A program made the translations under genes and the position numbers. From Halorussus pelagicus (GTDB lineage: Archaea > Halobacteriota > Halobacteria > Halobacteriales > Haladaptataceae), in contig NZ_CP035119.1 in assembly GCF_004087835.1 (NCBI RefSeq), forward strand, positions 2,728,001 through 2,792,000: a DNA stretch of 64,000 nt, in the 5' to 3' direction. Below the pieces are notes generated by a model. The model did not search any database, had not been told where the DNA came from, and saw nothing but the letters and a program-made list of their open reading frames with translations. The number at the start of each line of letters is the position of its first letter. Within the stretch, counting starts at the first letter, position 1. Positions 10,619 to 28,259 of this stretch are shown here, one piece after another.

Positions 10619-12436
10619 TCAGTCTCCGGGATCAAACAAATAGACGCCAACCAGCTCGCTAATTTCTCCTGCCTGAATCAGAGGCTTCTCGCCAAGGTTA
10701 ACAGTCACTTCATCGCGTAACAAGAAGTTCGTTAGTCGCCAGACGTTGTACATAATCACCGCGATTACAAAATACAGAAACCGAACACGGTAATCTTTCG
10801 AGGCCGACGTTGGTAGAAAGTGTTCTTTTATTGTTTTATATTCATTCTCGATCTCCCACCGATGGCCGTACTGAGCAGTTAACCCCTGCGCCCGATCAGG
10901 AGAAACTTCCGCGTTCGTCGTGAAAATTGAGTACGTCTCTTTCTCTTCTGTCGAAGGCACGTACATGATGCTCACATCGTGAGAACGCCCGTCGCCTCCG
11001 TCAAGCCTTGCAGGTTCCACCGCGATGTCTGCAACGGAATGTTCTTTGACTTTTTCTATATTATCATAGTCTACTGTGGCGTTCATTCGTTTTGGAATCA
11101 CGTACTGAACGTCGTGACGATCAATCACGTCTCGAACTCCGATTGTATCGAAACCCCTGTCGGCGAATAATTTTTGAATATTAACATGACGGCTTGCCTG
11201 CTCTAGCAAACGATCAACAATCTTCGCCCGTGACGTCGTTTGTATCTCTTCGTCCTCCCACCACCGCTTGTCACGAACTGGTTCGATAGCGAGGACGAGA
11301 GGAGTATCCTCTGCGACAATGGTAAGTGTCGCAAATTGATAGCCACGCTTACCGTCACCCTTCAATCCACTTACCATCTCTGGATAGTCATTCCGTAGGT
11401 AACGCTCCTCACCGTCTACTGGAATGGGTTCTTTCCACTCCTCAGTATCTTCTTCGTTGCAGTACGGGGAGGGCTCAAACTCCCATGATGTAATGTCAAT
11501 AGCTGCTTTGACTGGTTCTCGGAGACCGCCTTGGTCACGCTCTGCTATTTCATTTAGCAGTTGGTCAACGCCAGCGTGGAATGGCGACAAAACCTCCTTT
11601 CGGATCCGTTCCCAGTCCGGCGGTCGTCGCCCGTCAGCAAAGTCGCTAAGATCGGTTTGTGAGTCTGGGGCAGCGATCTTTTTCATCGTTCGATTATGCG
11701 AAGAGCCGTGTGGAACCTCATCACGCCTACTCAGCCACGCGAACCGCCGACGTGGAGTAGTCGTTCCTGCATTTGTTAGGGTGAGGTAGCCTTGCCGCTC
11801 GAAATACGCCTGTAGTTCGTATTTACAGTTTGAAGCTCGGTTGGCACTAAACTCATCAAACCCAAGTTCTGTGGCCCGATTGACGGCCTCGGCAATTTGC
11901 TCTTTTCCGATACTATCTCCGGCATTGATGTCGTCAGGGTCAAATGCAGGTTCACTCGCAAAGGTCACATTTTGACGAGTGCATATTTCGCGGATATGCT
12001 TCGCTGCCGTCGTAATCCCCCGGCGTTCGTGAATGCTAAACCGATTCCGCCACATGTAGTTGATAGTCTGTTGACGGGGTGGCTGATCAAGACCCAACCG
12101 GACATGGACAAATGCTGCGCCGCTGAGACGTCGAGCGAGTCTCGAATCATTAAATCCTTGGATGTGCTGGTACAGGAACATCAAAACGACCGATTCAAGC
12201 TCGTATTTTGCCCGACCGGGCTCGTCGTAGTCGGAGAACCAGCTTTCGGTGATATTAAGATTGGAAACTACGCGGGTGATGTGGTTGTGAATGTGACACA
12301 GGTCGTCTGCCTGTTGACATAAGGCTTCAATGACGGTTCTCCAGTCACTCTCTTGATCTACTGCGAGTTGCGATTCAGTAGTGTTCTGTCGAGATTGTGA
12401 GGGCATTCCGGGGCTTTTGATCTGTCTGGCTACTCT
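10583..12436 (-). mobile_element. IS4-family insertion sequence (proposed limits)
   Basis: The transposase gene at 10619-12406 is bracketed by an 11-bp direct repeat, TTGCAGTAGCT, at 10572-10582 and 12437-12447. That leaves 30-36 bp of non-coding end on each side, the usual IS geometry, and 10-12 bp duplications are known for ISH8/IS231-type IS4 elements. Terminal inverted repeats are not convincing, so the limits are inferred from the direct repeat alone. Confidence 0.45.
10619..12406 (-). CDS. IS4-family DDE transposase
   Basis: A full-length 595-residue transposase. The catalytic triad can be placed: first Asp in AAIDITSWEFEP (about 298), second in LFADRGFD (about 420), and Glu in YGHRWEIENEYKTIKE (about 525). 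The last segment fits the Y-(2)-R-(3)-E-(6)-K signature of IS4 exactly. The N-terminal 200 residues hold a helical DNA-binding region (FNDSRLARRLSG). It has no internal stop or frameshift, so it may be active. It is longer than most ISH8-type transposases. Confidence 0.85.
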   Translation of the reverse strand: MPSQSRQNTTESQLAVDQESDWRTVIEALCQQADDLCHIHNHITRVVSNLNITESWFSDYDEPGRAKYELESVVLMFLYQHIQGFNDSRLARRLSGAAFVHVRLGLDQPPRQQTINYMWRNRFSIHERRGITTAAKHIREICTRQNVTFASEPAFDPDDINAGDSIGKEQIAEAVNRATELGFDEFSANRASNCKYELQAYFERQGYLTLTNAGTTTPRRRFAWLSRRDEVPHGSSHNRTMKKIAAPDSQTDLSDFADGRRPPDWERIRKEVLSPFHAGVDQLLNEIAERDQGGLREPVKAAIDITSWEFEPSPYCNEEDTEEWKEPIPVDGEERYLRNDYPEMVSGLKGDGKRGYQFATLTIVAEDTPLVLAIEPVRDKRWWEDEEIQTTSRAKIVDRLLEQASRHVNIQKLFADRGFDTIGVRDVIDRHDVQYVIPKRMNATVDYDNIEKVKEHSVADIAVEPARLDGGDGRSHDVSIMYVPSTEEKETYSIFTTNAEVSPDRAQGLTAQYGHRWEIENEYKTIKEHFLPTSASKDYRVRFLYFVIAVIMYNVWRLTNFLLRDEVTVNLGEKPLIQAGEISELVGVYLFDPGD

Positions 12437-13380: not shown

Positions 13381-14079
13381 GGGCATTGTCCAAATTAGCT
13401 GATTCCATGCGAAGGCGAAGGTCTGCAACCAATTTCGGCAGAGCGGTGCGTCGCGTGGCGGAAATGATTAGCGAACTGTTGAGCTTGCCGTTTTAGTTCT
13501 TTGAAGACACGTTCGACGCCATTCCGATTTCCATAGCGAACATACTGAAATCGAAAGTTTTGCTCGAAGAGTGCGGCCTGTAACCACGGCGCACCATCGA
13601 CGAGAAACACCGCGTCGCCGACGTGGTGTTTCTCTTGCAATTCGGTAAGAAACTTCTTCGACACAACGATAGTTCGTGTCGGATAGAGCTTGACGTGCAG
13701 GAATTCGTTAGTTTTGGGATCGACGGCGGCGTACAGCCAGTAGCGCTGGTCGTTTAGTTGAATCACAGTTTCATCGACCGCAACGTGATTCGGCTCTTTC
13801 CCGTCTGTCGGCTGTAGATCGGCTTTCTGCACCCAATTATGAATAGTTGAGCGACACCGTTCGACACCGAACTGTTCGAGAACAGAAACAGTATCCGAAA
13901 GTGATAATCCGGCCGCGTGAAGATGAATACTGAGCTTCATCAGCGGCTCCGGTGTCGCTTCTCTCTCCACAAAATCTAATTCGATCCAGTCGCTACACTC
14001 GTTGAGGTGGTTGAATTCGGGCATAGAGCACCACGAATCACAACCGCCTCATCCTTCAGCCTTATCTGAACACTACCCC
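13381..14079 (-). mobile_element. IS6-family insertion sequence
   Basis: The ends are an imperfect inverted repeat: 13381-13400 (GGGCATTGTCCAAATTAGCT) and the complement of 14058-14079 (GGGTAGTGTTCAGATAAGGC after the first G), matching at about 14 of 18 positions. The resulting 0.7 kb size is normal for haloarchaeal IS6 elements. No matching 8-bp target duplication is visible, so it is an old or rearranged copy. Confidence 0.6.
13395..14024 (-). pseudogene. IS6-family transposase with C-terminal frameshift
   Basis: A DDE transposase of the IS6/IS26 type: a short HTH (GLSLSDTVSVLEQFGVE), first Asp in VAVDETVIQL (about 73), second Asp in FLVDGAPWL (about 127), and Glu in YGNRNGVERVFKELKR (about 170). 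After SAE the frame breaks. In the next frame the expected ending NWLQTFAFAWNQLI follows, so one A appears lost from a short A run at about 13431. The catalytic triad is kept but the last helix is scrambled, so activity is doubtful. Confidence 0.8.
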
Positions 14080-14257: not shown

Positions 14258-17200
14258 ATGAGTACACAAGAGGAGGAGGTGACTTCGCTCTTCGAGGCTT
14301 GCCAGCCTCGCTCCGACGTTATCAATGGGACGTTGGAAGAAGAGCAATTCGCCGCGAACCTCGCGACCGTCGCCCACGAACCCGATGAGGCTGCCCCTGT
14401 GTATCGGGACGCCGTAGAATTTTTCGAAACCACGTACCCCACCGAGGGGTTGGCCACTCTTCTGAGCAACCTCTCAGGGCGGTTTTTGGACGCCACAGAT
14501 AGGGATACTTATGGGTATAAGAGTAGCATTCTCTGTCTAGACACGACCTTCGGCGGCGGGAAAACGCACGATCTTATCGCTTCTTACCACCTCGCGAACA
14601 GTCCGACTGATATCGGGAATCTCTCTAAGTTCGTCGATAAAGACGATCTGGCGACCGAGTATCTGGACGCTGTTTCCGATGGGCTCGAAGCAAATTCGGC
14701 CGTCTTCGTTGGAGGGCACGTCGACGCTCGAAGCGCCCGGAGTAGCCGAACCGACCCGAACGCCCCGGACACGAATACGATGTGGGGCGAAATTGCGTAC
14801 CAGCTATTCGGTCTCGACGGCTATCGCGAGATTGAGGACTACGACCGCGACCGGCAGGCACCGGGTCAGAATACATTAAAAGATCTGCTTGAACAGAGTG
14901 ACCAACCCTCGGTGGTCCTCATCGACGAAATCGCGGAATATCTTGAGGACGCCTCCACGCTCGAGGTCGGTGGGGCAACGCTTGCCAGCCAGACCGTCTC
15001 CTTCATGAAGTCACTGCTGGAGACGGCAGCTCAGGTCGACACGCTCACGGTCATTTACAGTATTGCAGACTCGGCATTCAAGGAGGAAGCCGAAGAGGTC
15101 CGCGGCCTGATTGACGAACTAGATGCCGTCGTCCAGCGCCAGCAGAAGGTAATCACCCCTACCGGGGAAACCGAAGTCGGCGCTGTTCTCCAGCACCGTC
15201 TATTCGATGAAATCGATACAGACGTCGCAACTACGGTGGCGGAACAATACTTCCACTTCTACGACGAAGCTCCGCGCCAGTTCCCGCAGGAGGTCAGCGA
15301 CGACAGCTATCGCTCTAAGCTTGAACGGGAGTATCCGTTCCACCCGACCGTCATTGAAACGCTCACCGAGAAAATCGATACGATTCCGGACTTCCAGCGA
15401 ACCCGTGGGGCACTAAAACTGCTCGGGCGAGCGATTCACTATCTCTGGAATGATCAGCCTGGTGAGTACGACCGGCACTTTCTCCGACTCTATGACCTCA
15501 CGCCAGCGGATGATGCTCCAGATGGTAGTATCCGAGCGACACTCAACGAATCGCTGTTTGAATTCGTCGATCTGGGTGCTGCGGTGACCGCTGACATTTA
15601 CACGCGTGACGGAACGGCACACGCGCAGCTTGAGGATCAGAAATGGACGGAGAAGGGGATTCCTGCGCTCGGTACCCACATCACGACCACGGTCCTCTGG
15701 AATAGTCTCGCATTTGGTGAACAGGCGTCTGGGATCGCTCGACGTGGCCTCAACGAAGCAATCGGACATCCCGATGTCTCGTTCGATCACTACGATAACG
15801 CGTTGAAGAACCTTGGCGGCGACGATATGAGCGTCGCCTGCTACTACCTCTACGACGAGGACCAGATTCGGTTCAAGGCCGAACCGAACCTGATCAGGAT
15901 TATCGACCAGCGAATTCAAAACACCTCCGAGGAGCAAGCCCGGAGTCGGTTCGAAGCGCGATTAGACCGTGAGGTCGGAAGCGGGGGCTTCAACATCGAA
16001 ATGTTCCCCGAGGAACCAGCGGACGTAACAGATGATGGTTCCACGCCCACGCTTTCGATCATGCACATGCTTACGGCACCCGTGCAAACGGAGCGAGGGA
16101 AAGAAACCGAAGTCCCTGACAAGATCCAGGAGTTGTACGAGAAGACCGCCGCGAAACACGGAGGTAAGATTCAGAACCGGAGAAATAAGAACTACGTCTT
16201 GTTCTTGGCACCCGATTCGGAACTCCTTGAGAATGCTATCGGCCAGGCGACGCGTCTCGAAGCCATCGAGGACCTACGGGGGGACTCCCAGCAGACTGCG
16301 GATCTCTCCGACGAGCAATTTCAGGAACTTCGTGACAGAGAGGACGAAGCACGTGGGCTCCTCGGTGAGAGCGTTCGAAACGTCTATCGTCACCTGTTCT
16401 ACGTCGAGGACGACGGCCTGACACACGTTACTATCACTTCCGTTGATGCCAGCGGCGGAACAAAGCTCGTCGATGCGGTCCGGACCACGCTCGAAGATAT
16501 GAACCGGATCATCCGGGACGACGACCAGCCCAAAGGAAAGGTCTGGTTCAACCAGAAGTTGTGGCAGAGTCAGAAGCAGCGGATGACGACGGCGGACCTA
16601 GAAGCACAGTTCGCACGGAAACCGGGGCTACCCTTCCTCTTAAGTACGAAGCCGTTACGAAAGACCATCGCACGAATGGTCTCAGATTACGAGTACGCCT
16701 ACTGGGATAGTGAGACGGGGACAGCATACTGGAACGCCAAGTCACAGCCTGACAACTGGCAGCACGATGCCCCTCTCCCAGATTCGCCGGACGTCACGAC
16801 TTCGATTACTGATTCGCAGGTCAAGATTGGCGACGAGTACGAACTCTTCGCGAGTATCGAGGATCTCCTCGATCAACACGGCGACGAGATTCGGCCGCCG
16901 GAGCTCTCCGGATGCGCGAACTGCGACAAGGACCTCCCTTCCCAGAGTACCCACAAGCTGTGTGAGGAATGTCGGAACAAGTCTGCCGAGTGTGACGAAT
17001 GCGGAGATCGAGTCGAAAGCAAAACAAAAGCCGATGAACCCGTTCTGTGTGAGGACTGCAAAACGGGTCCTGGTGGAACGTGGAACAAATCCACGACGGG
17101 GTCGATGAGTGCGAAGCGGGCCTTTAACGAGATCCGCGGACACGCCGTATCCCAAGCAGGTAGCAATTCGATACCAGGAATTGACTCGCTGATTGTGCAG

Positions 17201-17584
17201 ATTGAAGGCGACCAGCCGTTCAAACACGGCTCCTTCGTCGCCCAGCGCTCCCCAGTAAAATCTCGAAGTGAGTCTATCACGGTTGACCTTGACTACAAGA
17301 GTCGTGCCGAGATGGGTGACGGTGAGGCAACCTTCAATGCTAATTTCAATGGCCCGCTCGATGCCTTCACGACACTAAATCAGAGCCCAGAGGGCTTTAG
17401 CGACCGGGCAGGTGGGAATCAGAAGGTCAAGCTAAGCTTTAAGTTCCAGTTGGACAAACCCGAACCTATCGATAACGACGAAGATGACGTGCTCGCCCAG
17501 CTCGGCGATGAACTCGACGGGATGAATATCACCGTCAGAGCGCAGGCCAACGGACCGACTAATGTCGAAAGAGACGACTCATGA
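14258..17584 (+). CDS. DUF499-type AAA+ ATPase of a methylation-linked defence cassette
   Basis: An 1108-residue P-loop ATPase. Walker A is in DTTFGGGKTHDLI (about 95-107) and Walker B in PSVVLIDEIAEYL (about 218-230), followed by VSFMKSLLETA and a sensor-like IYSIADSAF. This is the arrangement of DUF499 proteins, distant relatives of BrxC/PglY-type ATPases. At about 885-935 there are two tandem zinc-ribbon-like clusters (CANC..CEEC and CDEC..CEDC). Such proteins occur next to DUF1156 methylases and helicases. The role is probably ATP-dependent remodelling on foreign DNA, by analogy. Start at ATG 14258 from TATA spacing; an upstream GTG at 14234 is possible. The ATG of the next gene overlaps its stop. 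Confidence 0.8.
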   Translation: MSTQEEEVTSLFEACQPRSDVINGTLEEEQFAANLATVAHEPDEAAPVYRDAVEFFETTYPTEGLATLLSNLSGRFLDATDRDTYGYKSSILCLDTTFGGGKTHDLIASYHLANSPTDIGNLSKFVDKDDLATEYLDAVSDGLEANSAVFVGGHVDARSARSSRTDPNAPDTNTMWGEIAYQLFGLDGYREIEDYDRDRQAPGQNTLKDLLEQSDQPSVVLIDEIAEYLEDASTLEVGGATLASQTVSFMKSLLETAAQVDTLTVIYSIADSAFKEEAEEVRGLIDELDAVVQRQQKVITPTGETEVGAVLQHRLFDEIDTDVATTVAEQYFHFYDEAPRQFPQEVSDDSYRSKLEREYPFHPTVIETLTEKIDTIPDFQRTRGALKLLGRAIHYLWNDQPGEYDRHFLRLYDLTPADDAPDGSIRATLNESLFEFVDLGAAVTADIYTRDGTAHAQLEDQKWTEKGIPALGTHITTTVLWNSLAFGEQASGIARRGLNEAIGHPDVSFDHYDNALKNLGGDDMSVACYYLYDEDQIRFKAEPNLIRIIDQRIQNTSEEQARSRFEARLDREVGSGGFNIEMFPEEPADVTDDGSTPTLSIMHMLTAPVQTERGKETEVPDKIQELYEKTAAKHGGKIQNRRNKNYVLFLAPDSELLENAIGQATRLEAIEDLRGDSQQTADLSDEQFQELRDREDEARGLLGESVRNVYRHLFYVEDDGLTHVTITSVDASGGTKLVDAVRTTLEDMNRIIRDDDQPKGKVWFNQKLWQSQKQRMTTADLEAQFARKPGLPFLLSTKPLRKTIARMVSDYEYAYWDSETGTAYWNAKSQPDNWQHDAPLPDSPDVTTSITDSQVKIGDEYELFASIEDLLDQHGDEIRPPELSGCANCDKDLPSQSTHKLCEECRNKSAECDECGDRVESKTKADEPVLCEDCKTGPGGTWNKSTTGSMSAKRAFNEIRGHAVSQAGSNSIPGIDSLIVQIEGDQPFKHGSFVAQRSPVKSRSESITVDLDYKSRAEMGDGEATFNANFNGPLDAFTTLNQSPEGFSDRAGGNQKVKLSFKFQLDKPEPIDNDEDDVLAQLGDELDGMNITVRAQANGPTNVERDDS

Positions 17585-18180
17585 GTGTATATCCCGACGA
17601 GGAACAGGCAGGATCCTTCGCCCTAGGGAGTAGTATCTATGGTGGTCGTCCCACGTTCGCCCTCGTTCGTGACGAAACGGGGAACGAAGCGACAATCACA
17701 CTCTACGAGCTGCTTCCGACCGAGCAGGCTGACGCACGGAAGCGGCGACTCGAACGACGCCGACGACAGTCGTCGAAAACGCATCCGTTCCACGAAGTGA
17801 TTGGTGAAGACGTAGCGGACACGGAGGATTGGACGTGGGACAGCTGGGTTGCTATGAAAGTGCGGCAACTCTCCGGTTCCCGCCTCCGATGTCTCCTCCA
17901 ACTCTTCGACGAAGCCTTCAGAGACACAGATATTGACCCCTCGTTGATAACCGGTACAGGTTCTGCAACCGTCCTCATTCCTGAAGAGCCAGGAGTTCGG
18001 CTCTCACTCGGATTTATCGGAGTCAAACCGTTACAGAGAGTTGATCGGATGCGAGCACTTACTCGAGGCGTAGCACGGATGAGTCTGGAAGAGTGCTACT
18101 ATTGGCACGCTAAGTGTCGTTCGCCAAATAGTCCAAATGGAGCAAAAGCCCTTCGAACGCTATTAGCAAAACACAAATAA
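17581..18180 (+). CDS. uncharacterised cassette protein between ATPase and methylase
   Basis: A 199-residue protein with no recognised domain. The first 60 residues look like beta strands (GSFALGSSIYGGRPTFALV), followed by a very basic stretch (ARKRRLERRRRQSSKTHPF) and a mixed C-terminal region (SATVLIPEEPGVRLSLGFIG). The Arg cluster would suit nucleic-acid binding. ATG overlaps the ATPase stop (ATGA), so translation is coupled, and the start of the methylase gene follows 5 nt after its stop. The tight linkage argues for a dedicated subunit. Confidence 0.75.
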   Translation: MSVYPDEEQAGSFALGSSIYGGRPTFALVRDETGNEATITLYELLPTEQADARKRRLERRRRQSSKTHPFHEVIGEDVADTEDWTWDSWVAMKVRQLSGSRLRCLLQLFDEAFRDTDIDPSLITGTGSATVLIPEEPGVRLSLGFIGVKPLQRVDRMRALTRGVARMSLEECYYWHAKCRSPNSPNGAKALRTLLAKHK

Positions 18181-18185
18181 CACAT

Positions 18186-21077
18186 ATGTCCGAAGAAAAA
18201 CCGTTAGAGTCTGCCCAGAAACTGAAAAAACTGGCAATAGAAGGAGAACTACCTCTCAAAACAATTGGTATTGAAAACCTAAAAGAATCTAATCCGAAGC
18301 ATAAACCACCTCAAATTTATCTGCACCCGTGGTTCGCCCGTCGCCCAACTCCTGTTTCGCGATTGGCGGTGCTCGCCTCAATTCTCCCTGAAAGCGTGAG
18401 TTCAGATCAATTGTTGAAATGGATGCAAATCGGGCCGAAGCATCTAGAGTCTGGAATCGCGGAACACGTTGAATCAAAGAAAGCAACTGAAGCTTCTCGG
18501 TCCGGGAATTTTGAGGAACACTACGGATACCCCCGTCCATTCAGATTGTCACCTTCCAAATCAGAAATCAGCGAACTCCATGAAGAATTGAAGGAACACT
18601 GGGATGGTGAGCTGCCGACTATTTTAGATCCTACAGCCGGTGGAGGAGTGATCCCGTTCGAGGCACTCCGGTATAATCTGCCCGTACGGGCTAACGAACT
18701 CAACCCAATACCGGCCTTAATTCTGAAGGTGATGCTGGAGTATGCGCCTGAAGTCGGTTCCCTGAGAGACGAGCTTGAACACTGGGGAGGAGAAATCAAC
18801 GAAATCGCAAAAGAGCGTATAAAACCGTATTTTCCGAAAGAGAATCCCAGTCACAAGATTCTGAATTCAGCGTGTACCTTTACTGTACCTTGTGACGATT
18901 GCGGCTGTGACATTCCTCTCGTCTCAAAATGGTGGCTGTACAAGGATAGTGCACGAGAGGGCGTAGCGGTTCGACCTTCTGTGAATCAAGAAAAAAATAC
19001 GGTGGAGTACGATGTCGTACGTCTACCAGATGATGTAACGAAAGAGGAATTTGATCCGCAGAAGGGCGTAGTCGATGGAAGTGCTACATGTCTTAACTGC
19101 AATGCTCCTATGGATGCGGACCGGTTCAAAGAGAAAATAGCTGCGGATAACTTCAATTATGAACTCTTAGGAGTAAAATATGAGAAAGCTGGAGAGTCAC
19201 AGGGTAGCTATCGGTCACCGACTACGGATGACGAAGCGGCGATGGATGCTGCCGTAGATCGGATAAATTCCGATTTGGATCTGGCCACTTTTCTTACTAC
19301 GGAAATCCCGGAAGGACAAGAAACAGACCGGCTCTTTAATTGGGGATTCACCGAGTGGCGAGATATTTACTCACCCCGTCAGCTCGTAACGCATTACGAA
19401 TATCTTCAAGCGTTCAAGGAATACAGAGAGTCCATTGAAGATCAGTACAACGAAGAAACGGCGAAAGCGATTCTAACCCTACTCTCCTTAACCGCGAGTA
19501 AATCATTAGACCGTAATTCAATTCTGTCCCCCTGGAGCACGAAAAAGGGCTATCCAGAGAACGCAATGGGAGGGAAGAATTACCCTGTTCAGCGACTTTA
19601 CGTCGAGAACAATTTATCAGAGCGAGAACAGGGGTATCTGGATATATTGGAGAGAATAACTGATTCGTATGAGGAACTAGTTGAGTTTGCAGACCAAGTT
19701 GAGGATCCAGACGTTTCGTTGTCTGTCGGTGACGCAGCCGATCTCCCCTATGAGGCTGGCGAGATTAGCGCTGCTGTTATGGATCCTCCGTATTACACCA
19801 GCATTATGTATTCTGAGTTGTCGGACTTCTTTTATGTCTGGCTAAGAGAGTACCTTGAGGAAATTTATCTGGATACGTTCAGATCCCCATTAACAAATAA
19901 GGAAGAAGAGGCCGTCGCGAACCCAAGTCGATTTGAATCTGTAGCAACTGGGGAGAAGTCAAGCAAGGATTTGGCTAACGAATACTATGAGCAGAAGATG
20001 AGTAATATCTTTTCTGAGGTCTACAGAACACTGGAGCGTGGGGGAGTAATGACTGTGATGTTCACGCACAAGGAAACTGATGCGTGGGATACTCTTACAA
20101 TGTCCTTGATAAACTCTGGCTTCACCATCACCTCAACACATCCCATAACTAGTGAGATGCCCCAGCGGTTGGATACCCGTGGTGGAGGGTCTGCAGACAG
20201 TACGTTATTATTAACAGGGAGAAAGCCCGCACAAGATCAAGACCCAGAATCGGGACAACCTACTCTATGGGATGATGTGAAAAAAGAAACTAGAGCAACT
20301 GCAAAAGACGCAGCGCGTGATCTATTAGATTCCGGCCTCAGCTTAACGAAGACGGACGTGATTATCAGTGCTTTCGGACCAACACTTGGTGTCTACGCAG
20401 ACAGTTATCCCGTTGTTGACGATAAGGGGAATGAGGTCAGACCACGGGAGGCATTGACAGAAGCCCGAGAAGCTGTAACTCAAGTCTTGGTCGATACGTA
20501 CCTTGAGGGTGAGGGAATCGATAGTCTTGATGAAGTCACTAAGTGGTATATACTCTCGTGGCTGGTGCATGAATCAGATACATTCGAATATGATGACGGC
20601 CGTCAGCTTGGCCTGGGAGTTGGTATTGATATTGACGACATCAACAGTAAAATGAAAGTTTGGCGGAAGGGGAGTGGGAGCAATACCATCCAACTCCGTT
20701 CTCACGATGACGTTCGTGTCCAAGATGTCAACAAACCTCCCGAAAGCCGTTCTAGTCGGCGACCTGTAAATCCAGATGATATGTCGTACTCTGTTGCCCT
20801 GGACGCAGTACATGCCGCGATGCATGTCTATGAAGCAAAGGGTGAAACGGAGGCTTGGAACTGGATGAACGAGCGGAATGTTCAATCAAACTCTGATTTC
20901 CGATCTGCGCTCACAGCATTACTTCAGGTATTACCTTCCGATCACAATGATTGGGAGCTCGCACGTGATCTTTCAGTTGGGAAGACTGGAGACCTACTTG
21001 ATTTGGATGTTGATGCGAGCGTATTCCAAGACGAAGAAGACGAGGGAGATCGTCAAGGAAATCTGAGCGACTTCTGA
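18186..21077 (+). CDS. DUF1156-type DNA amino-methyltransferase
   Basis: A 963-residue methylase. The N-terminus ([19 protein letters not shown], about 37-60) is the DUF1156 signature. SAM-binding motif I is [16 protein letters not shown] (about 147-162). The catalytic motif is [20 protein letters not shown] with DPPY at about 533. DPPY indicates methylation of an exocyclic amine (N6-adenine or N4-cytosine). Cys pairs at about 236 (CDDCGC) and 302 (CLNC) form an inserted zinc site. Its role is probably to mark host DNA. The gene is clearly more AT-rich than its two upstream partners, suggesting a different origin or replacement. Confidence 0.85.
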
Positions 21078-21217
21078 GATCTGTCACTATTTTGGAAAGG
21101 AGAATGGCTCAATCTCTCACGCAGTCGGGGTCCGAGAGCGGCACATCAAAGTTCTGTGCTTCTTTATCCAAATGTACCAACTATTTATGTACTGGAACAG
21201 GCATACGTCAATATCAG

Positions 21218-24200
21218 ATGGCTAGGTCCCTTCGTGACTACGAGTGGCAGTCTATCTACGAAAGCCAGCCAAGCAAAGACGGGTCTCATCTAATCAAGGA
21301 ATTCTACGTTCCTGCTCTCGAACGGAGTATCCGGTACGACCGGATCGCGGGCTATTTCGATAGTGGCTCCCTTGCTGCTGCAGCAAACGGAATTGAGGCA
21401 CTCGTCGAAAACGACGGTCGGATGCGCCTGATCGTTGGCGCACAGCTACAGCCTAAGGACCGACCTGTGCTAGAACCACTTGCCGACAATCTCGATGAGA
21501 ACCTGACGGATTTAGACGATGAAACACTAGATCAGCAGCTTCAACTGCTTGCCTGGCTTCTCCGAGAGGACCGACTTGAGCTCAAAATCGCGGTCCCTAG
21601 CAGTGGAGAGTGGGGGATCTTCCACCCCAAAGTAGGTATATTCCGAGATGAGGATGGGAATCGAATCTCGTTCGAGGGGAGTATCAACGAGACGGCTGGC
21701 GGTTGGACGCGGAACTACGAGCGGTTCAAAGTCCACCGCTCGTGGGACGACGGCCAAGCACCCTACGTCGAAGGCGACCAAGACTCGTTCAAGAAGCTGT
21801 GGCAGGACGAGCATTCCTATGTCGATGTCTACGATCTTCCAGAGGCCGTAAAAAAAGAACTCATCGACTGGAAAGCTCCGGACAACAATGTCGAGGTATC
21901 CCAGATCGTCGAGAAGATCCGCGGGCCCGAAGGACCAACTGAAGGCGATAAGGGGAGAATTTTAGCTGACGGGGCACGGGCTCCTGGTGGCCTCCAACTC
22001 GCCGAGGAAGCGAGTACAATCGATCCGTGGCCTCATCAACGGGTCGTTTCTGACACAGCAGTCAACACGTATCCGAACTCGTACCTTCTCTGTGACGAGG
22101 TCGGACTCGGCAAAACTATCGAAGTCGGGCTGACGCTCTCGCGACTCGGCCTGACTGGCGAACTCGAGAACTCGCTTGTCCTCACTCCTGCGAGTCTCGC
22201 CGTCCAGTGGCAAGAAGAGCTTTGGGAGAAGTTCAACATCAACGCCTTTCGGTACGACCGTGGGAGTGACTATGATTATGCTTTCATCGATTCATTCGGG
22301 CAGGAGCATCCAGTTCCGGGCACGAGTGACATAAACATCGATGCGGATCGACGTGACGAGGCGTGGACGAATAGCCCGCTGTGGCGGTTCGCACACGCTC
22401 GGCAGGATAACCCCATGCCGACCGTCATCATCATGTCCTGGCACACAGCGCGTCTCACAGGCCGGTGGGATCAGGTCGCTCCCGCGGACGAAGGGACCCC
22501 CCGCACGAGGGACGATATCCCGGCGAGCTGTCGAGGACGCAACGCGGACGCTCGAGAAGGCGTCTGGGATGCTGTTGTCGTCGACGAGTCACACAACGCT
22601 CGCCGAGGGAGCAACTTCTACAACCTGCTCGAACGGCTCCGCGACCACACCCACTGCTACTATCTCCTCACCGCAACGCCGATGCAACTCCACCATCGCG
22701 AGCTGTACGACCTACTAACGCTCCTTGATATCCCGGATACGTGGGACGATCGGGACCGATTTGTCGAGTTCTTCGAGACCCGGCAAGCGTTTTCAACCGT
22801 TCTCGAAGGTGGGGCAGACCTGTCGTCTCGCTCAACGTCAAGCGAACCGTCGCAAGCAACACTCGACGGAACGTATCAGGACTGCTTCGATTCGTCGATT
22901 GAATATGCGGACGTCGTCCTCGAGGGACTCGTCGACAAACTCGGGGTGGAGGATCAAGGTCGCGGTGTTGCGAAGCAACGACTGCTTCAAGCGTGTAACC
23001 TCGCACGAGGCTATGGACAACAGTACGACGACTACCGACGGAAAGTCGACGCAGCTATCGACGAGCAAATCGATCCGTTCGGAGCTGACGAAGACACGAA
23101 ACTTAAGCGGTTGCTGTATCCAGAATCGGTGCTGAACGAGGAGATGATTATCTCCTCACGGAGTGATCGGCTTGATGCGCTCGATGAGCTCAGTGAAGAC
23201 GGCTGGAACGTACTCCAGGACGTGTTCTCGTGGGCGACGCCGGTTGATGCGTGCATCCACCGGAATACCAGGGATACCCTCAAGAAATATCGTAAAGCAG
23301 GGCTACTCGAAGCGACAGTTCCGACGCGCAAGCCCGAACGCCGACGGATTGAACTCAATGAGCAGACCCGCCGAGTGTATGATCGAATCGACGAGTACAC
23401 CCGAACCTTCTACAAGAAGGCTCAACAGTCGACTGAGACGGAAGCCCGCGCCATCGGGTTCGTGATGACCACGTATCGCCAGCGGCTAACTAGCAGTGTC
23501 TACGCTATTTCCCAGAGCCTCTCCTCGCGCCTGGAGAAACTCAAGAAACAGCAGAAAGTGCTCGAACGCCGGAAGCGCATCCGGGACGAGCAGGATGAGG
23601 ATCGCCAGGCAGTGCTGGATGCGTTAAGTGACTTCGACGAAGAAGAGATCGCCGAGATGGAAGACGCCGGCGAGGACGTGCTGAACGTCGATCTGACTGA
23701 GCTGGCACCTAGCCTTACAGACGAAGGGATCAACCTCCTCAAAGAGGAGATCGAGGAACTAGAGTCGTTCATTCAGGAGGTCAAGCAGGTCGATGACGAC
23801 CCGAAGATGGATCAGCTGTACGAGGACCTCGACATGCTTGACCGGAAAGGTCGGAGTCGAATCATCGTCTTCACACAGTACAAGGACACGATGCACTTCG
23901 TCCGTCGGCAGCTCCGATGGAAGTACGGCGAGAATATTGCCTGCTACTCGGGTGATGGCGGAGAAATGTACGACGGGGATGAGGATACTTGGCGGAACGT
24001 CGGGAAGGAGCCGGTCAAGCGAGAGTTCTCCGATAACGACGGTGAGGTTGATATTCTCGTGTGTACCGACTCGGCGAGTGAGGGGTTGAACCTGCAGGAA
24101 TGTGGTGCGATGATCAACTACGACCTTCCGTGGAATCCGATGCGAGTGGAACAGCGAATCGGTCGTATCGACCGCATCGGTCAGGAATACGACGACATCT

Positions 24201-25153
24201 ACATCCTCAACTACAGCTACGAGGATACTGTCGAATCAGATATCTATGACCGACTGGATGACCGCATCGGCCTGTTCGAGTACGTCGTTGGCGATATGCA
24301 GCCGATTCTGTCCGGTGTCGGGTCGAAGATTCGGGAGGCAACAATGGTTGAGGGAGCGAAAGCGGACAGCGAGGAATACGAAGAGCTTGAGCAGGACATT
24401 GAACAAGATATCGAGGAGCAACAGAGTGAAGACGATCCAGTCGAGTTGAAAGATTCGCTCGCAGAGGTCGACAGCGACCGACCCTTGCATGAACAGGTCA
24501 TCCAAGAAGCCCGCTTAGACGCCTGGGAAACCTACTCCCATCCTGATCTCGGGAAGGTCGGGAACCTAGATGAAAATCGGGACCCAGTCTTCACCGTAAA
24601 GGCGATTAAGGGAGTTTTCATAGAGAGCGAAACCCTCAACGAGGCAGGAGTCCACTTCGATTCACTGTCGCAATTAGATACGGAGTTCGACCTTAGTGAA
24701 CCGGAAGATGCAGAATCCATTTACTGCCTCCAGCATACAGGAGACGCTCCAGTCACAGCAGAAGAAAACGGGGATACGCTTGCAGCGAGCATCGCAAATA
24801 AGCACGAGGGAATCGGTGTGACATTCGACTCCGAAACAGCAGATGAGTACCCCTCACTCAGATTCCTCGCACCAGGGAGCCCATTGTTCAACTGGTTAGC
24901 AGCGACGCTGGTCGAAGCGTCGGGTCAGATGAATCTCACTCAATCCGCCTGTACAATGAATGTTGACGGCGAAATTGTTGACACCGCAGAGGAGCCGTGG
25001 GTCGTTACCGGATGGTCCGAAGAAGATGGTGCGGACAGATCTCTCATCCACCTTACTGACGATGGCTCAATCGGTGAGCAGTCGGAGACTGTAGAGTTCC
25101 TCGATCAATGGGCACAGAAGTTCGTAAAGAATCGAACTCGCTCAAACTCATAG
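21218..25153 (+). CDS. PLD-nuclease/SNF2-type helicase fusion
   Basis: A 1311-residue protein. The N-terminal 190 residues resemble a phospholipase-D-type nuclease half-site ([14 protein letters not shown], then [13 protein letters not shown] and FEGSINET). The helicase core has Walker [15 protein letters not shown] (about 295), DESH box [10 protein letters not shown] (about 453), LLTATPMQL, and the C-terminal motifs [13 protein letters not shown] and [18 protein letters not shown] (about 950-985). A charged coiled coil lies between the lobes (about 770-880). DISARM DrmC/DrmD proteins provide the same two activities separately. Start chosen at ATG 21218 ([10 protein letters not shown]); an in-frame ATG at 21104 next to GGAG would add 38 residues of unlikely composition. 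Confidence 0.85.
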
Positions 25154-25174: not shown

Positions 25175-25896
25175 CTAGTTTACCTCTTCGACCGGTGTTT
25201 TTCTATCGAGTGCTTGATGCGGCCGCTGACGGTTGTAGTAATGCATGAATTGTTCAACCCACTCGCGGACGCTCGCCCGACTGCCCACCCATGAGTTGTG
25301 GAAGCGGTCGATCCGCATCTTGAGGGTGTGAAACCATTTTTCGATGAGGTTTCGGTCAGTGTAGTCGAGGTGACCGCTCAATCCGATTCGAGAGAGGGCA
25401 GTCAGATAGCCGTAGCCATCGACGAGAAACGTTGCGTCCAAGAGATCATGTTTCTCGGTGAGTCGATGCAGAACGCAACTGCTGGATCAGTGCCACGCCG
25501 CCCAAACAACGCGACATCGAGCAGCAGTTTTGTCTCGGTGTCTATTTCAGCATACACCCACGACCACTCGCCATTAATCTTGACAGCGGTCTCGTCAACC
25601 GCGAACCGCGTCGGCTGCGCCGACGGCGGGTCGCACCCGCTGTCAGCTAGCCGATGCACCCAGCCCTAAACTGCCCCATGAGACCGCCCAACGCCTGAAA
25701 CCGACAAAATTGCTGTTGTTTCTCGGAGCGAACAGCCTGTTTCGTGGAGGCGGACGGCGAACGCCCTGACGGGCGTCGCCGTCCGCTCATCCTCCCAAGC
25801 TTCTTCTAAATCTGTCTCTAAGTCCTGTTTGAGCAGGCCTGCGAGCATCTTTAGACAAGAAACTCCACGACCTGCTCGTTCCTCAAACTGCCTCAA
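25175..25896 (-). pseudogene. shattered IS6-family transposase
   Basis: Three minus-strand frames join into one IS6-type protein. First: FAVRLHETGCSLRETTAIL (25666-25896). Second: RFAVDETAVKINGEWSWVY and DVALFGRRGTDPAVAF (25402-25659). Third: DATFLVDGYGYLTALSRIG, DYTDRNLIEKWFHTLKMRI and YNRQRPHQALDRKTPVEEV (25175-25441). At least two frameshifts separate them. The DDE residues (VAVDE-like, LVDG, LIEKW) are all still present. This is a different IS6 subtype from the one at 13.4 kb and closes the cassette on its right. Confidence 0.85.
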
Positions 25897-26334: not shown

Positions 26335-27378
26335 CTACAGTAGCGAGTAGACGTGCCGGTCGTACACCTCTCGAACCCTGTCGCCCCAGTTGTGCGTGTA
26401 GGTGTCGATGATGTCCTCGGCCACGTCGCCCCGGAGGTACTTCACGATACCGCGGTCGCCGGTCCGGTCCCGGAGATGCGTCGTAAAGAAGTGCCGGAAG
26501 TAGTGGGGCGTCACGTTCTCCGCGGCGTCGCCGCCCTTTCGATGCCACCCGTTGTCGCTGGCGTGGTTCGTGACGATGTCGTGGACGATGGCCGGAGTGA
26601 CGCGCTGGCCCCAGTTCTCCCGCGTCGTCGTGAAGAGGGGGTCGGCCGGGGAGATGGGGTCTGGTCGCACCGCCAGCCACCGTTTCAGCGTCCGCTTCAG
26701 TTCGGCGTCAACGGGGACGACGGTTTCGCGCTTGCGCTTGTTGGAGGCCGACCGGCGCTCGCCGTTGTACGAGTCGCCGACGTTCGGTTCGGGCGAGACG
26801 TATATCGAGTCGGGTTTGCCGTCGAGTTGGGGGCGCGTCGCGCCCGTGTCGGCCAGCGACACGTCCCGGAAATCGAGATTGCAGAGTTCACCCGCCCGCA
26901 TCCCCGTCTTCAGGAGCGTGACGACAACGGCCCGGTCGAGCGGGTGAGTCACGTCGGCGACGAAGGCCCGCATCGCGGCGACCGAGATGTCGCGTCGCGT
27001 CGGGTTCGTGTCGATTCGCTCGTCCATCTCCTCGACCACAAGGGCCATCGGGTTCGCTTCGAACTCGCCGACCTGATTCATGTAGGCGTAGAACCGATGG
27101 AGGTACGAGGCGTAGGTCGCCACCGTACTCTCGGCGGCCCGACCTCGGAGGGCGTGAATCCACGCCATGCAGTCGCGCCGGGTCGCTTCCGCGACGGATT
27201 TCTCGACGCCCATCGGATTCTCTGCTGGCGTCTGTAGGAACGTCTCGAACTCTCGCAGGACCCGCTCGTAGGTGTCGCGCGTTCGCTCGGTCTTCCCGTG
27301 GTAAGTCATGTCCTGTAGGAAGTACCCTATCGGGTCGCCGACGCCCTCCTCGGTGCGCGCGTGCTCTTCAGTCGCCAT
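26335..27378 (-). CDS. XerC/D-type tyrosine recombinase
   Basis: A 347-residue integrase. The N-terminal core-binding (SAM-like) domain spans about 15-120 (TRDTYERVLREFETFLQ, then STVATYASYLHRFYAYM). The catalytic domain has Arg I in LLKTGMRAGELCNL (about 187), HxxR in PHYFRHFFTTHL (about 293), and a C-terminal Tyr, probably in VREVYDRHVY. The R-H-R-Y set is therefore intact. It overlaps the upstream RHH-like gene by 11 nt, a pairing seen repeatedly in haloarchaea. It may be a host-type recombinase rather than the integrase of the neighbouring island. Confidence 0.85.
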   Translation of the reverse strand: MATEEHARTEEGVGDPIGYFLQDMTYHGKTERTRDTYERVLREFETFLQTPAENPMGVEKSVAEATRRDCMAWIHALRGRAAESTVATYASYLHRFYAYMNQVGEFEANPMALVVEEMDERIDTNPTRRDISVAAMRAFVADVTHPLDRAVVVTLLKTGMRAGELCNLDFRDVSLADTGATRPQLDGKPDSIYVSPEPNVGDSYNGERRSASNKRKRETVVPVDAELKRTLKRWLAVRPDPISPADPLFTTTRENWGQRVTPAIVHDIVTNHASDNGWHRKGGDAAENVTPHYFRHFFTTHLRDRTGDRGIVKYLRGDVAEDIIDTYTHNWGDRVREVYDRHVYSLL

Positions 27379-27799
27379 CGGTCTCCCCGACGAGCGTGTA
27401 CCCGCCCCGGCGTCCGCTGTACTGGACGCGATTGTTTCGCTGGAGCTGCTGGAGCGTCTCCTCCAGTCTGTCCTCGATGCTGTTCGTGAGTTCGTCCACG
27501 AGTTCGTCCCACGCGAGATGGTCGGAAGTCGAGAGAACAGCGAGGACGTGTTCCTCTAACTCCTCGCCGTCGGCGGTATCCGGGTCGCCGCCGTTGGACT
27601 CCTCCTCCGAGTCGGACTCCGAGGACGCAATCGGCTCGATATCGAAGTCGCGCCGCCCCGCCTGCACCATCGTCCGAACGAACTCGCTCTGGCTCATGTC
27701 GAGTTCGTCGGCGTGTCGCTTCCATTCGGCTTTCTGATACGCGGGCACGAACGTCTTGACGGATTTCCGAGTGGTATCGACTTCCTCGTCGTCGGCCAT
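27368..27799 (-). CDS. ribbon-helix-helix-like DUF5805-type protein
   Basis: A 143-residue acidic protein. The start, TTRKSVKTFVPAYQKAEW and LDMSQSEFVRTMVQAGRR, looks like an RHH DNA-binding unit. A Glu/Asp/Ser linker follows, and then a C-terminal winged-helix-like part (DHLAWDELVDELTNSIEDR and VQYSGRRGGYTLV). The ATG of the recombinase lies inside its last codons, so they are co-translated. It is probably a partner or regulator of the recombinase (inference). Confidence 0.75.
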   Translation of the reverse strand: MADDEEVDTTRKSVKTFVPAYQKAEWKRHADELDMSQSEFVRTMVQAGRRDFDIEPIASSESDSEEESNGGDPDTADGEELEEHVLAVLSTSDHLAWDELVDELTNSIEDRLEETLQQLQRNNRVQYSGRRGGYTLVGETDGD

Positions 27800-28259
27800 A
27801 TTCGGGGCGACTCACCCCATCGTTATCAAACTACCCTAGACACAAGAATAAACAATCTTATTTAGGAGAGAAGGCCGCAACTTTGCCACACATATTCAGC
27901 TTATTTGTGAGTCTATGCCTATTAAATCGAAGCTGTGGTACTACACTCGCATCTCTAAAATATAGATTGCGAAACTGCCGACGGTCCATTCGACGACGAG
28001 TACGACTCGACAGCCGCTGTGGGAACTTCGTTGAAATACACCACGCTCACACGACCGTCTGTAGAGGTGTTCTGCGGTCTCCAACCCTTGGGGTCACGGT
28101 CTCGAAACGCCCATCCATTCTATCTCAAAAATGGACATTCTGATGGGGCATAAATGACGGATTGAAATAATTTTAGAGGATACAATCCCCGACCATCCAC
28201 AGTATTATTTCCGAGAATAACTGTTCACTTCTTCGACAACCGAGGCGGAGGACGAATAG
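27800..28259. other. AT-rich intergenic region
   Basis: About 460 bp. The part next to 27800 (AAACAATCTTATTTAGGAG) probably holds the promoter of the RHH-recombinase pair. On the minus strand 27955-28119 is open for 54 codons without a start and reads GRVSVVYFNEVPTAAVE, which looks like a gene fragment. No complete gene seen. Confidence 0.4.

Follow-up and report, generated by a model that had tools for sequence, protein, structure and literature searches.

A four-gene operon at 14258-25153 in a 64,000-nucleotide stretch of the Halorussus pelagicus chromosome (the window; positions 2728001-2792000 of a 3.49 Mb genome) is real and intact and is probably a restriction system of the antiviral type. 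Its genes encode a DUF499 ATPase, a small DUF7680 protein, a DUF1156 DNA methylase and an SNF2 helicase fused to an HKD nuclease of the phospholipase D (PLD) type. With a probability of about 0.78, the operon can be read as a complete antiviral system guided by DNA modification, similar in logic to restriction-modification (R-M) and BREX systems, and as a DUF7680-bearing subtype of the DUF499-centred family. This reading draws on the constant linkage of the genes, their intact catalytic motifs, the anti-phage naming of a counterpart set that carries DUF3780, a BrxC-related ATPase and the exchange of methylase segments between operons.

Gene organisation and catalytic motifs

A sequence-only reading had proposed that the locus comprises a DUF499 ATPase, a 199-residue protein, a DUF1156 methylase and a PLD-SNF2 helicase. 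Profile searches confirm this set as four intact, co-directional open reading frames (ORFs):

14258..17584, + strand: DUF499 AAA+ ATPase (BrxC/HmaC-like), 1108 amino acids; placed by Pfam, PADLOC and a BrxC-rooted tree
17581..18180, + strand: DUF7680 protein, 199 amino acids; PF24728 DUF7680, 1.8e-35
18186..21077, + strand: DUF1156 N6-adenine DNA methylase, 963 amino acids; DUF1156, 2.5e-7; PADLOC HmaB, 3.4e-59
18708..19760, + strand: methylase residues ~175-525, where target recognition is expected to reside; conservation is lower here than anywhere else in the operon, and both CxxC pairs fall inside
21078..21217, + strand: methylase-helicase junction; no accessory genes in the window
21218..25153, + strand: HKD(PLD)-SNF2 helicase, ~1311 amino acids from ATG 21218; frame open from TTG 21092
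21620..21694, + strand: HKD nuclease motif of the helicase; from the motif and aligned columns across relatives

The ATPase matches PF04465 DUF499 (6.6e-34) and the PADLOC models HmaC (1.2e-88) and DUF499 (1.8e-39). It carries a Walker A motif (GGGKT, residues 96-104), a Walker B motif (LIDE, 219-229) and zinc-ribbon-like cysteine pairs near its C-terminus (residues 886-934). The start at 14258, chosen in the sequence-only reading, is preferred over a longer GTG frame because the alignment of relatives begins at that methionine. The start of the DUF7680 gene overlaps the ATPase stop by 4 nucleotides. In the methylase, catalytic motif I (LDPTAGGG) lies at residue 147 and motif IV (DPPYY) at residue 533, and the two CxxC pairs occupy residues 236-239 and 302-305 (nucleotides 18891 and 19089).

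The helicase, whose start is probably ATG 21218 in agreement with the annotated start in Haloglomus, matches SNF2 (1.4e-14), Helicase_C (1.9e-18), PLDc_2 (2.2e-4) and PADLOC PbeA (3.4e-67). Its HKD-type signature reads FHPK...D...EGSINET, and the H, K and GSxN positions are invariant in 46/46 helicases having residues at those columns; aligned columns were counted because a regular expression proved too strict (31/45). Catalytic signatures of the ATPase, the methylase and the helicase are all present in the window operon.

Linkage and distribution of DUF7680 loci

The genes do not usually lie apart, contrary to the outcome that would have refuted the sequence-only reading. Among 51 distinct DUF7680 loci, all 51 have the ATPase gene upstream and the methylase gene downstream on the same strand. 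The helicase gene follows downstream in 45, and the other six loci reach the end of the contig or of the fetched stretch first; the automatic locus count misses a few because stop-to-stop frames overlap. This linkage is far beyond chance.

The system is scattered across haloarchaea and reaches into bacteria. Of 394 genomes sampled from the phylum, 15 have a PF24728 match over cut-off, and every one belongs to the window's order. A search of the genomes of 84,980 species with the window's DUF7680 protein gave 25 loci, almost all of them in haloarchaea, and tblastn on plasmids adds loci in cyanobacteria (Nostoc, Leptolyngbya, Picosynechococcus and others), Rhodococcus, Sinorhizobium and Aminobacter. 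In the bacterial loci, other genes are sometimes interposed between the core genes. Many copies of the system are plasmid-borne. A close relative of the ATPase occurs in 4 of the 18 genomes of the genus, a patchy presence that is expected of a mobile defence module. A DUF7680 operon in a metagenome-assembled genome labelled 'uncultured proteobacterium' (L034) branches inside the haloarchaeal clade and is either a transfer or a mislabelled bin.

The methylase-helicase junction holds 0.5-6 kb of accessory genes in 18 of 44 DUF7680 loci (among L019-L143). These genes encode a UPF1/Mokosh-like superfamily 1 (SF1) helicase, Nmad3, DUF3800, DUF262 (DUF262/GmrSD-like), TauD-like and toxin-antitoxin proteins. 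In the Natrialba taiwanensis operon (L021, 13542-14399), the slot is occupied by a gene for a TauD/TfdA-type dioxygenase, possibly a base-modifying enzyme or an unrelated passenger. Another DUF7680 operon (L109, 7630-12102) has an apparently split methylase gene, its parts separated by ~1.5 kb of other DNA.

Replacement of the methylase and exchange of its recognition segment

Nucleotide identity and base composition indicate that the window's own methylase was replaced, within the following segment:

17600..21130, + strand: replaced segment, comprising the 3' part of the DUF7680 gene, the entire methylase gene and the slot; ~52% nucleotide identity to Haloglomus, compared with 82-89% on both sides; breakpoints approximate, from nucleotide identity and G+C

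Compared with the plasmid operon of Haloglomus halophilum, nucleotide identity is ~80-89% through the ATPase gene, drops inside the DUF7680 gene, stays at ~52% over the methylase gene and is 84% again from 21137. G+C is 0.45-0.49 over the methylase gene, as against 0.54-0.60 on either side. The proteins show the same break, with 92% identity for the ATPase, 88 and 68% for the two halves of DUF7680, 48% for the methylase and 89% for the helicase. The methylase segment of the window could not be traced to a single donor.

The same pattern recurs in other operon pairs. Listed in the order ATPase, DUF7680 N-terminal half, DUF7680 C-terminal half, methylase and helicase, protein identities are 97, 97, 97, 54 and 98% for L111/L123; 98, 96, 99, 64 and 98% for L116/L130; 97, 96, 93, 65 and 98% for L020/L024; and 95, 87, 98, 71 and 96% for L029/L031. 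Other pairs at a similar ATPase distance keep methylases that are still 80-99% identical, which argues for allele replacement and not merely fast evolution. In DNA alignments, an identity of 85-94% reaches 60-500 nucleotides into the methylase gene, then breaks off and returns after about codon 530-700. These breakpoints are abrupt, lie inside the methylase gene and have 85-94% identity on both sides; in L111/L123, the entire gene was replaced.

In every case, the part lost is the one between motif I (147) and motif IV (533). A published family description (PMC12839542) places a target-recognition insert with zinc motifs after core strand 2 of BR (BREX-related) methylases. This recognition segment is only 36-59% identical in 21 of 26 pairs whose ATPases are at least 88% identical. 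Across 393 pairs, which are not independent of each other although at least seven share no member, identity to the partner's ATPase correlates strongly with that of the helicase (r = 0.91), less with that of the C-terminal methylase part (0.72) and least with that of the recognition segment (0.49). On these alignments, the recognition segment is recurrently exchanged in an otherwise constant operon, the other genes being 88-98% identical.

Family placement

The core trio belongs to a known group, the Hma or DUF499-centred BR family (PMC12839542; PADLOC HmaABC). In that published description, Type-1 systems have three genes, Type-2 systems add DUF3780 and an HKD-helicase, and Type-3 systems add PglZ. 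The window locus combines the DUF499 ATPase, DUF1156 N6-methylase and Swi2/Snf2 helicase that define the family. Among PADLOC and Pfam models, HmaC and HmaB match its ATPase and methylase best, and PbeA, PLD_Helicase and BrxH its helicase. NCBIfam names the set of DUF499, DUF3780, DUF1156 and phospholipase D proteins anti-phage (NF042961-NF042964). Neither PADLOC nor NCBIfam holds a DUF7680 model, and the literature searched does not mention the domain; DUF7680 loci may nevertheless sit unnamed inside the Type-1 or Type-2 sets of PMC12839542.

ATPase trees, one rooted on BrxC and a second built without an outgroup, give the DUF7680 systems a clade of their own. The BrxC-rooted tree separates the DUF499 and BrxC types at 100% and resolves DUF7680 (archaeal and bacterial), DUF3780 and other DUF499 ATPases as three groups, with Shimodaira-Hasegawa-like approximate likelihood ratio test (SH-aLRT) values of 91, 100 and 99. 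Support for the DUF7680 clade is 91-94 across the ATPase trees. The DUF7680 group also holds together in the methylase tree (96) and, without support (39), in the helicase tree. Given these trees and profiles, DUF7680 systems appear as an undescribed cross-domain subtype of the DUF499-centred (Hma/BR) family, not as a categorically new system.

The closest known relatives are the Type-2 BR systems and the matching NCBIfam set. They share the order ATPase, small protein, DUF1156 methylase, HKD-helicase, and place the HKD-endoDNase at the helicase N-terminus, as in the window. Their small protein is DUF3780, whereas that of the window is DUF7680, and their ATPase clade excludes the DUF7680 ATPases. 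DUF3780 was found in 5 of the 394 sampled genomes of the phylum and in none of the window's order, the only order of the phylum in which DUF7680 scores over cut-off; a PF12635 (DUF3780) search of the window genome gave no match.

It is conceivable, at somewhat less than even odds, that the window system is simply the known Type-2 system and DUF7680 a diverged DUF3780. The identical gene order and shared HKD-helicase would fit this, as would the structural models. The AlphaFold2 model of DUF7680 (predicted local distance difference test score, pLDDT, 84.9) has an alpha+beta N-terminal part, ordered beta-beta-alpha-beta-alpha-beta, and a C-terminal part of four helices with an ExxYW...ARxLL motif. 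The weaker DUF3780 model (pLDDT 67.9) shows the same order of elements, and both models carry an ExxYW-type motif in the third C-terminal helix. When the profiles of the two families were aligned freely, they settled into this same register, and each carries an EExxW / A[LI]R motif.

The topology and motif are suggestive, but homology was not accepted, as neither hhalign (probability <1%) nor profile Smith-Waterman alignment with shuffles (z = 0.5) reached significance. The two models share no PDB fold matches, the DUF3780 model itself being weak (pLDDT 68). Fold searches with the DUF7680 model against PDB and BFVD, and with the DUF3780 model against PDB, gave a best E of 0.018 and TM-scores of ~0.2, too weak to help. 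In the BrxC-rooted tree, moreover, the DUF3780, DUF7680 and other DUF499 clades meet in an unresolved fork. Midpoint-rooted ATPase and helicase trees seemed to support the DUF7680 and DUF3780 subtypes as sisters; this relation is not claimed here because the methylase tree differs and the BrxC root leaves it open. Identity of DUF7680 with PbeD is ruled out, as PbeD is DndE-like (PMC10853773).

Other BR types are further removed. HmaC and HmaB of the Hma or Type-1 systems are the best-scoring models for the window's ATPase and methylase; Type-1 systems, however, have three genes and a helicase with an N-terminal TUDOR and a C-terminal PD-(D/E)XK domain (PMC12839542), whereas the window operon has four genes and an HKD domain at the helicase N-terminus. 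HEPN-fused Type-1 members (L128, L142) fall in a clade that excludes the window ATPase. Type-3 systems have PglZ, iSTAND and a helicase without nuclease, while the window genome has no PglZ over cut-off and the operon has HKD (iSTAND was not searched for separately).

Two further groups of loci were seen during this comparison. In a DUF499 operon on the methanogen side (L108, G137:C183, 3942-4358), a 139-residue protein between ATPase and methylase gives a weak DUF7680 match (1.5e-4) and carries an EExxFW motif, making it a possible link between the small-protein families. A second, very distant DUF499-like family (L099-L106; ~1081 amino acids, E ~1e-6) adjoins DUF1156-like methylases without DUF7680 and is often seen in haloarchaea, those of the window's genus among them.

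Proposed mechanism and alternatives

The family assignments and motifs suggest that the DUF1156 methylase would read a DNA motif through its zinc-bearing insert and mark host DNA with N6-methyladenine. The DUF499 ATPase, as a BrxC relative, may drive ATP-dependent assembly of a complex on DNA. The constant linkage of DUF7680 would suit a role as a small, indispensable adaptor linking ATPase and methylase, and the conserved residues of the HKD-SNF2 helicase are consistent with an enzyme that translocates on unmarked DNA and cuts it or blocks its replication.

Marking and attack very likely both take their specificity from the methylase, because recombination replaces its target-recognition segment while the ATPase, DUF7680 and the helicase remain almost unchanged. 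Restriction should follow methylase specificity, since each swap would otherwise turn the effector on its own host, and the methylase is then probably part of the restriction complex. This arrangement has been demonstrated for PglX of BREX, whose specificity serves both marking and attack and which sits within the restriction complex (PMC11341690). In a haloarchaeon, the effector PbeA, a homologue of the helicase, has a part in defence against viruses (PMC6459918).

Some points weigh against this picture. NCBIfam scores are far under the equivalog cut-offs (188 vs 1200, 140 vs 1000 and 341 vs 1100 bits), and the target-recognition domain is positioned from catalytic motifs and the published family description. 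Cleavage by the helicase is also uncertain, since PbeABCD, which shares the HKD-helicase, reportedly stops replication of the virus SNJ1 without visible cleavage (PMC6459918), a view disputed by work arguing that Pbe does cut DNA (PMC10853773).

These Pbe results lend themselves to another, rather unlikely reading, in which the helicase stalls viral replication without cutting, as in Dnd-PbeABCD, and the effector is harmless to a host without the mark. The N-terminal part of the helicase has PbeA as its best PADLOC match, and viral DNA is reportedly not degraded by PbeABCD. Against this, the CxC ABC ATPase and the DndE-like PbeD are absent from the operon, as are Dnd genes, the HKD residues are invariant, and Pbe itself has been argued to cut. 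The Dnd-Pbe mark is phosphorothioation, in place of which the window system would use methylation.

Less probable still is that the operon does not serve defence, acting instead as an epigenetic regulator or as a selfish module of R-M-like kind that keeps plasmids and islands stable. The many plasmid-borne copies and the transposase remnants around the window copy would suit such a role, but the frequent replacement of target recognition points to an arms race, and the DUF262/GmrSD-like, UPF1-like helicase, Nmad3 and DUF3800 genes of the junction are typical of defence islands.

Membership of DISARM or BREX, whose DrmA/DrmB and PglZ the sequence-only reading had already noted as lacking, is extremely improbable: the helicase matches DrmD and BrxH models and the ATPase is related to BrxC, but no DrmA/DrmB or PglZ gene adjoins the cassette or occurs in relatives' operons, and the genome has no PglZ over cut-off and MZB (the DUF1998-associated domain) only outside the window. 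What the operon shares with BREX (Types 1-3) is a BrxC-like ATPase, an N6-methylase with a nested target-recognition domain and a RapA-like helicase (BrxHII), without PglZ, BrxA, BrxB or BrxL. With DISARM it shares the methylase, PLD and SNF2 helicase functions; in the window, a single protein combines PLD and helicase.

Genomic context

The sequence-only reading placed the cassette among insertion sequences (IS), which is partly right; two transposase ORFs and a decayed relic flank it:

10619-12406: IS4-type transposase ORF, left of the cassette
13395..14024, - strand: IS6/IS240-like transposase ORF on the left side of the cassette, seemingly shortened; profile and sequence comparison
25295..25794, - strand: decayed IS6/IS240-like transposase relic with an internal stop, right of the cassette; 33-38% amino acid identity to the left IS6/IS240-like ORF

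No clean empty insertion site was found: the right flank, from ~26.25 kb, is common to genus relatives, and the left flank does not adjoin it there. Genus relatives also conserve the integrase gene at 26335-27378, which does not belong to the cassette. Together with a DUF5805 gene (26335-27961), this XerC-like integrase is common to genus relatives but runs the other way round in two of the three (L168, L169); the segment is possibly invertible.

Significance for DUF499-centred defence

The sequence-only reading is borne out in seeing a coherent four-gene set of defence type, kin to DISARM and BREX but belonging to neither. It also called this a poorly described antiviral system. That description suits the DUF7680 subtype and the methylase exchange, which are undescribed, while the core trio is known as the Hma/BR family and the DUF3780 counterpart already bears an anti-phage name. 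New here are the linkage and subtype of DUF7680, its own ATPase clade and the recurrent exchange of methylase segments. DUF7680 thereby gains a context and a likely role, and a defence subtype that current tools leave unnamed is added.

The near-identical natural operon pairs, which differ mainly in the methylase recognition segment, make two questions testable: whether the methylase alone sets restriction specificity in DUF499-centred systems, and whether the HKD-helicase cuts DNA or blocks replication. The PbeABCD assay in Natrinema with virus SNJ1 (PMC6459918) shows that haloarchaea are good hosts for such tests. On balance, we lean slightly towards a wider view, in which DUF7680 systems would form a separate, fourth lineage of DUF499-centred defence that spans both domains. 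A single exchangeable methylase segment would set the target of both marking and attack, populations could re-target the system by recombining ~1.0-1.9 kb, and DUF7680 would serve as the conserved adaptor joining one ATPase-helicase chassis to many methylase alleles.

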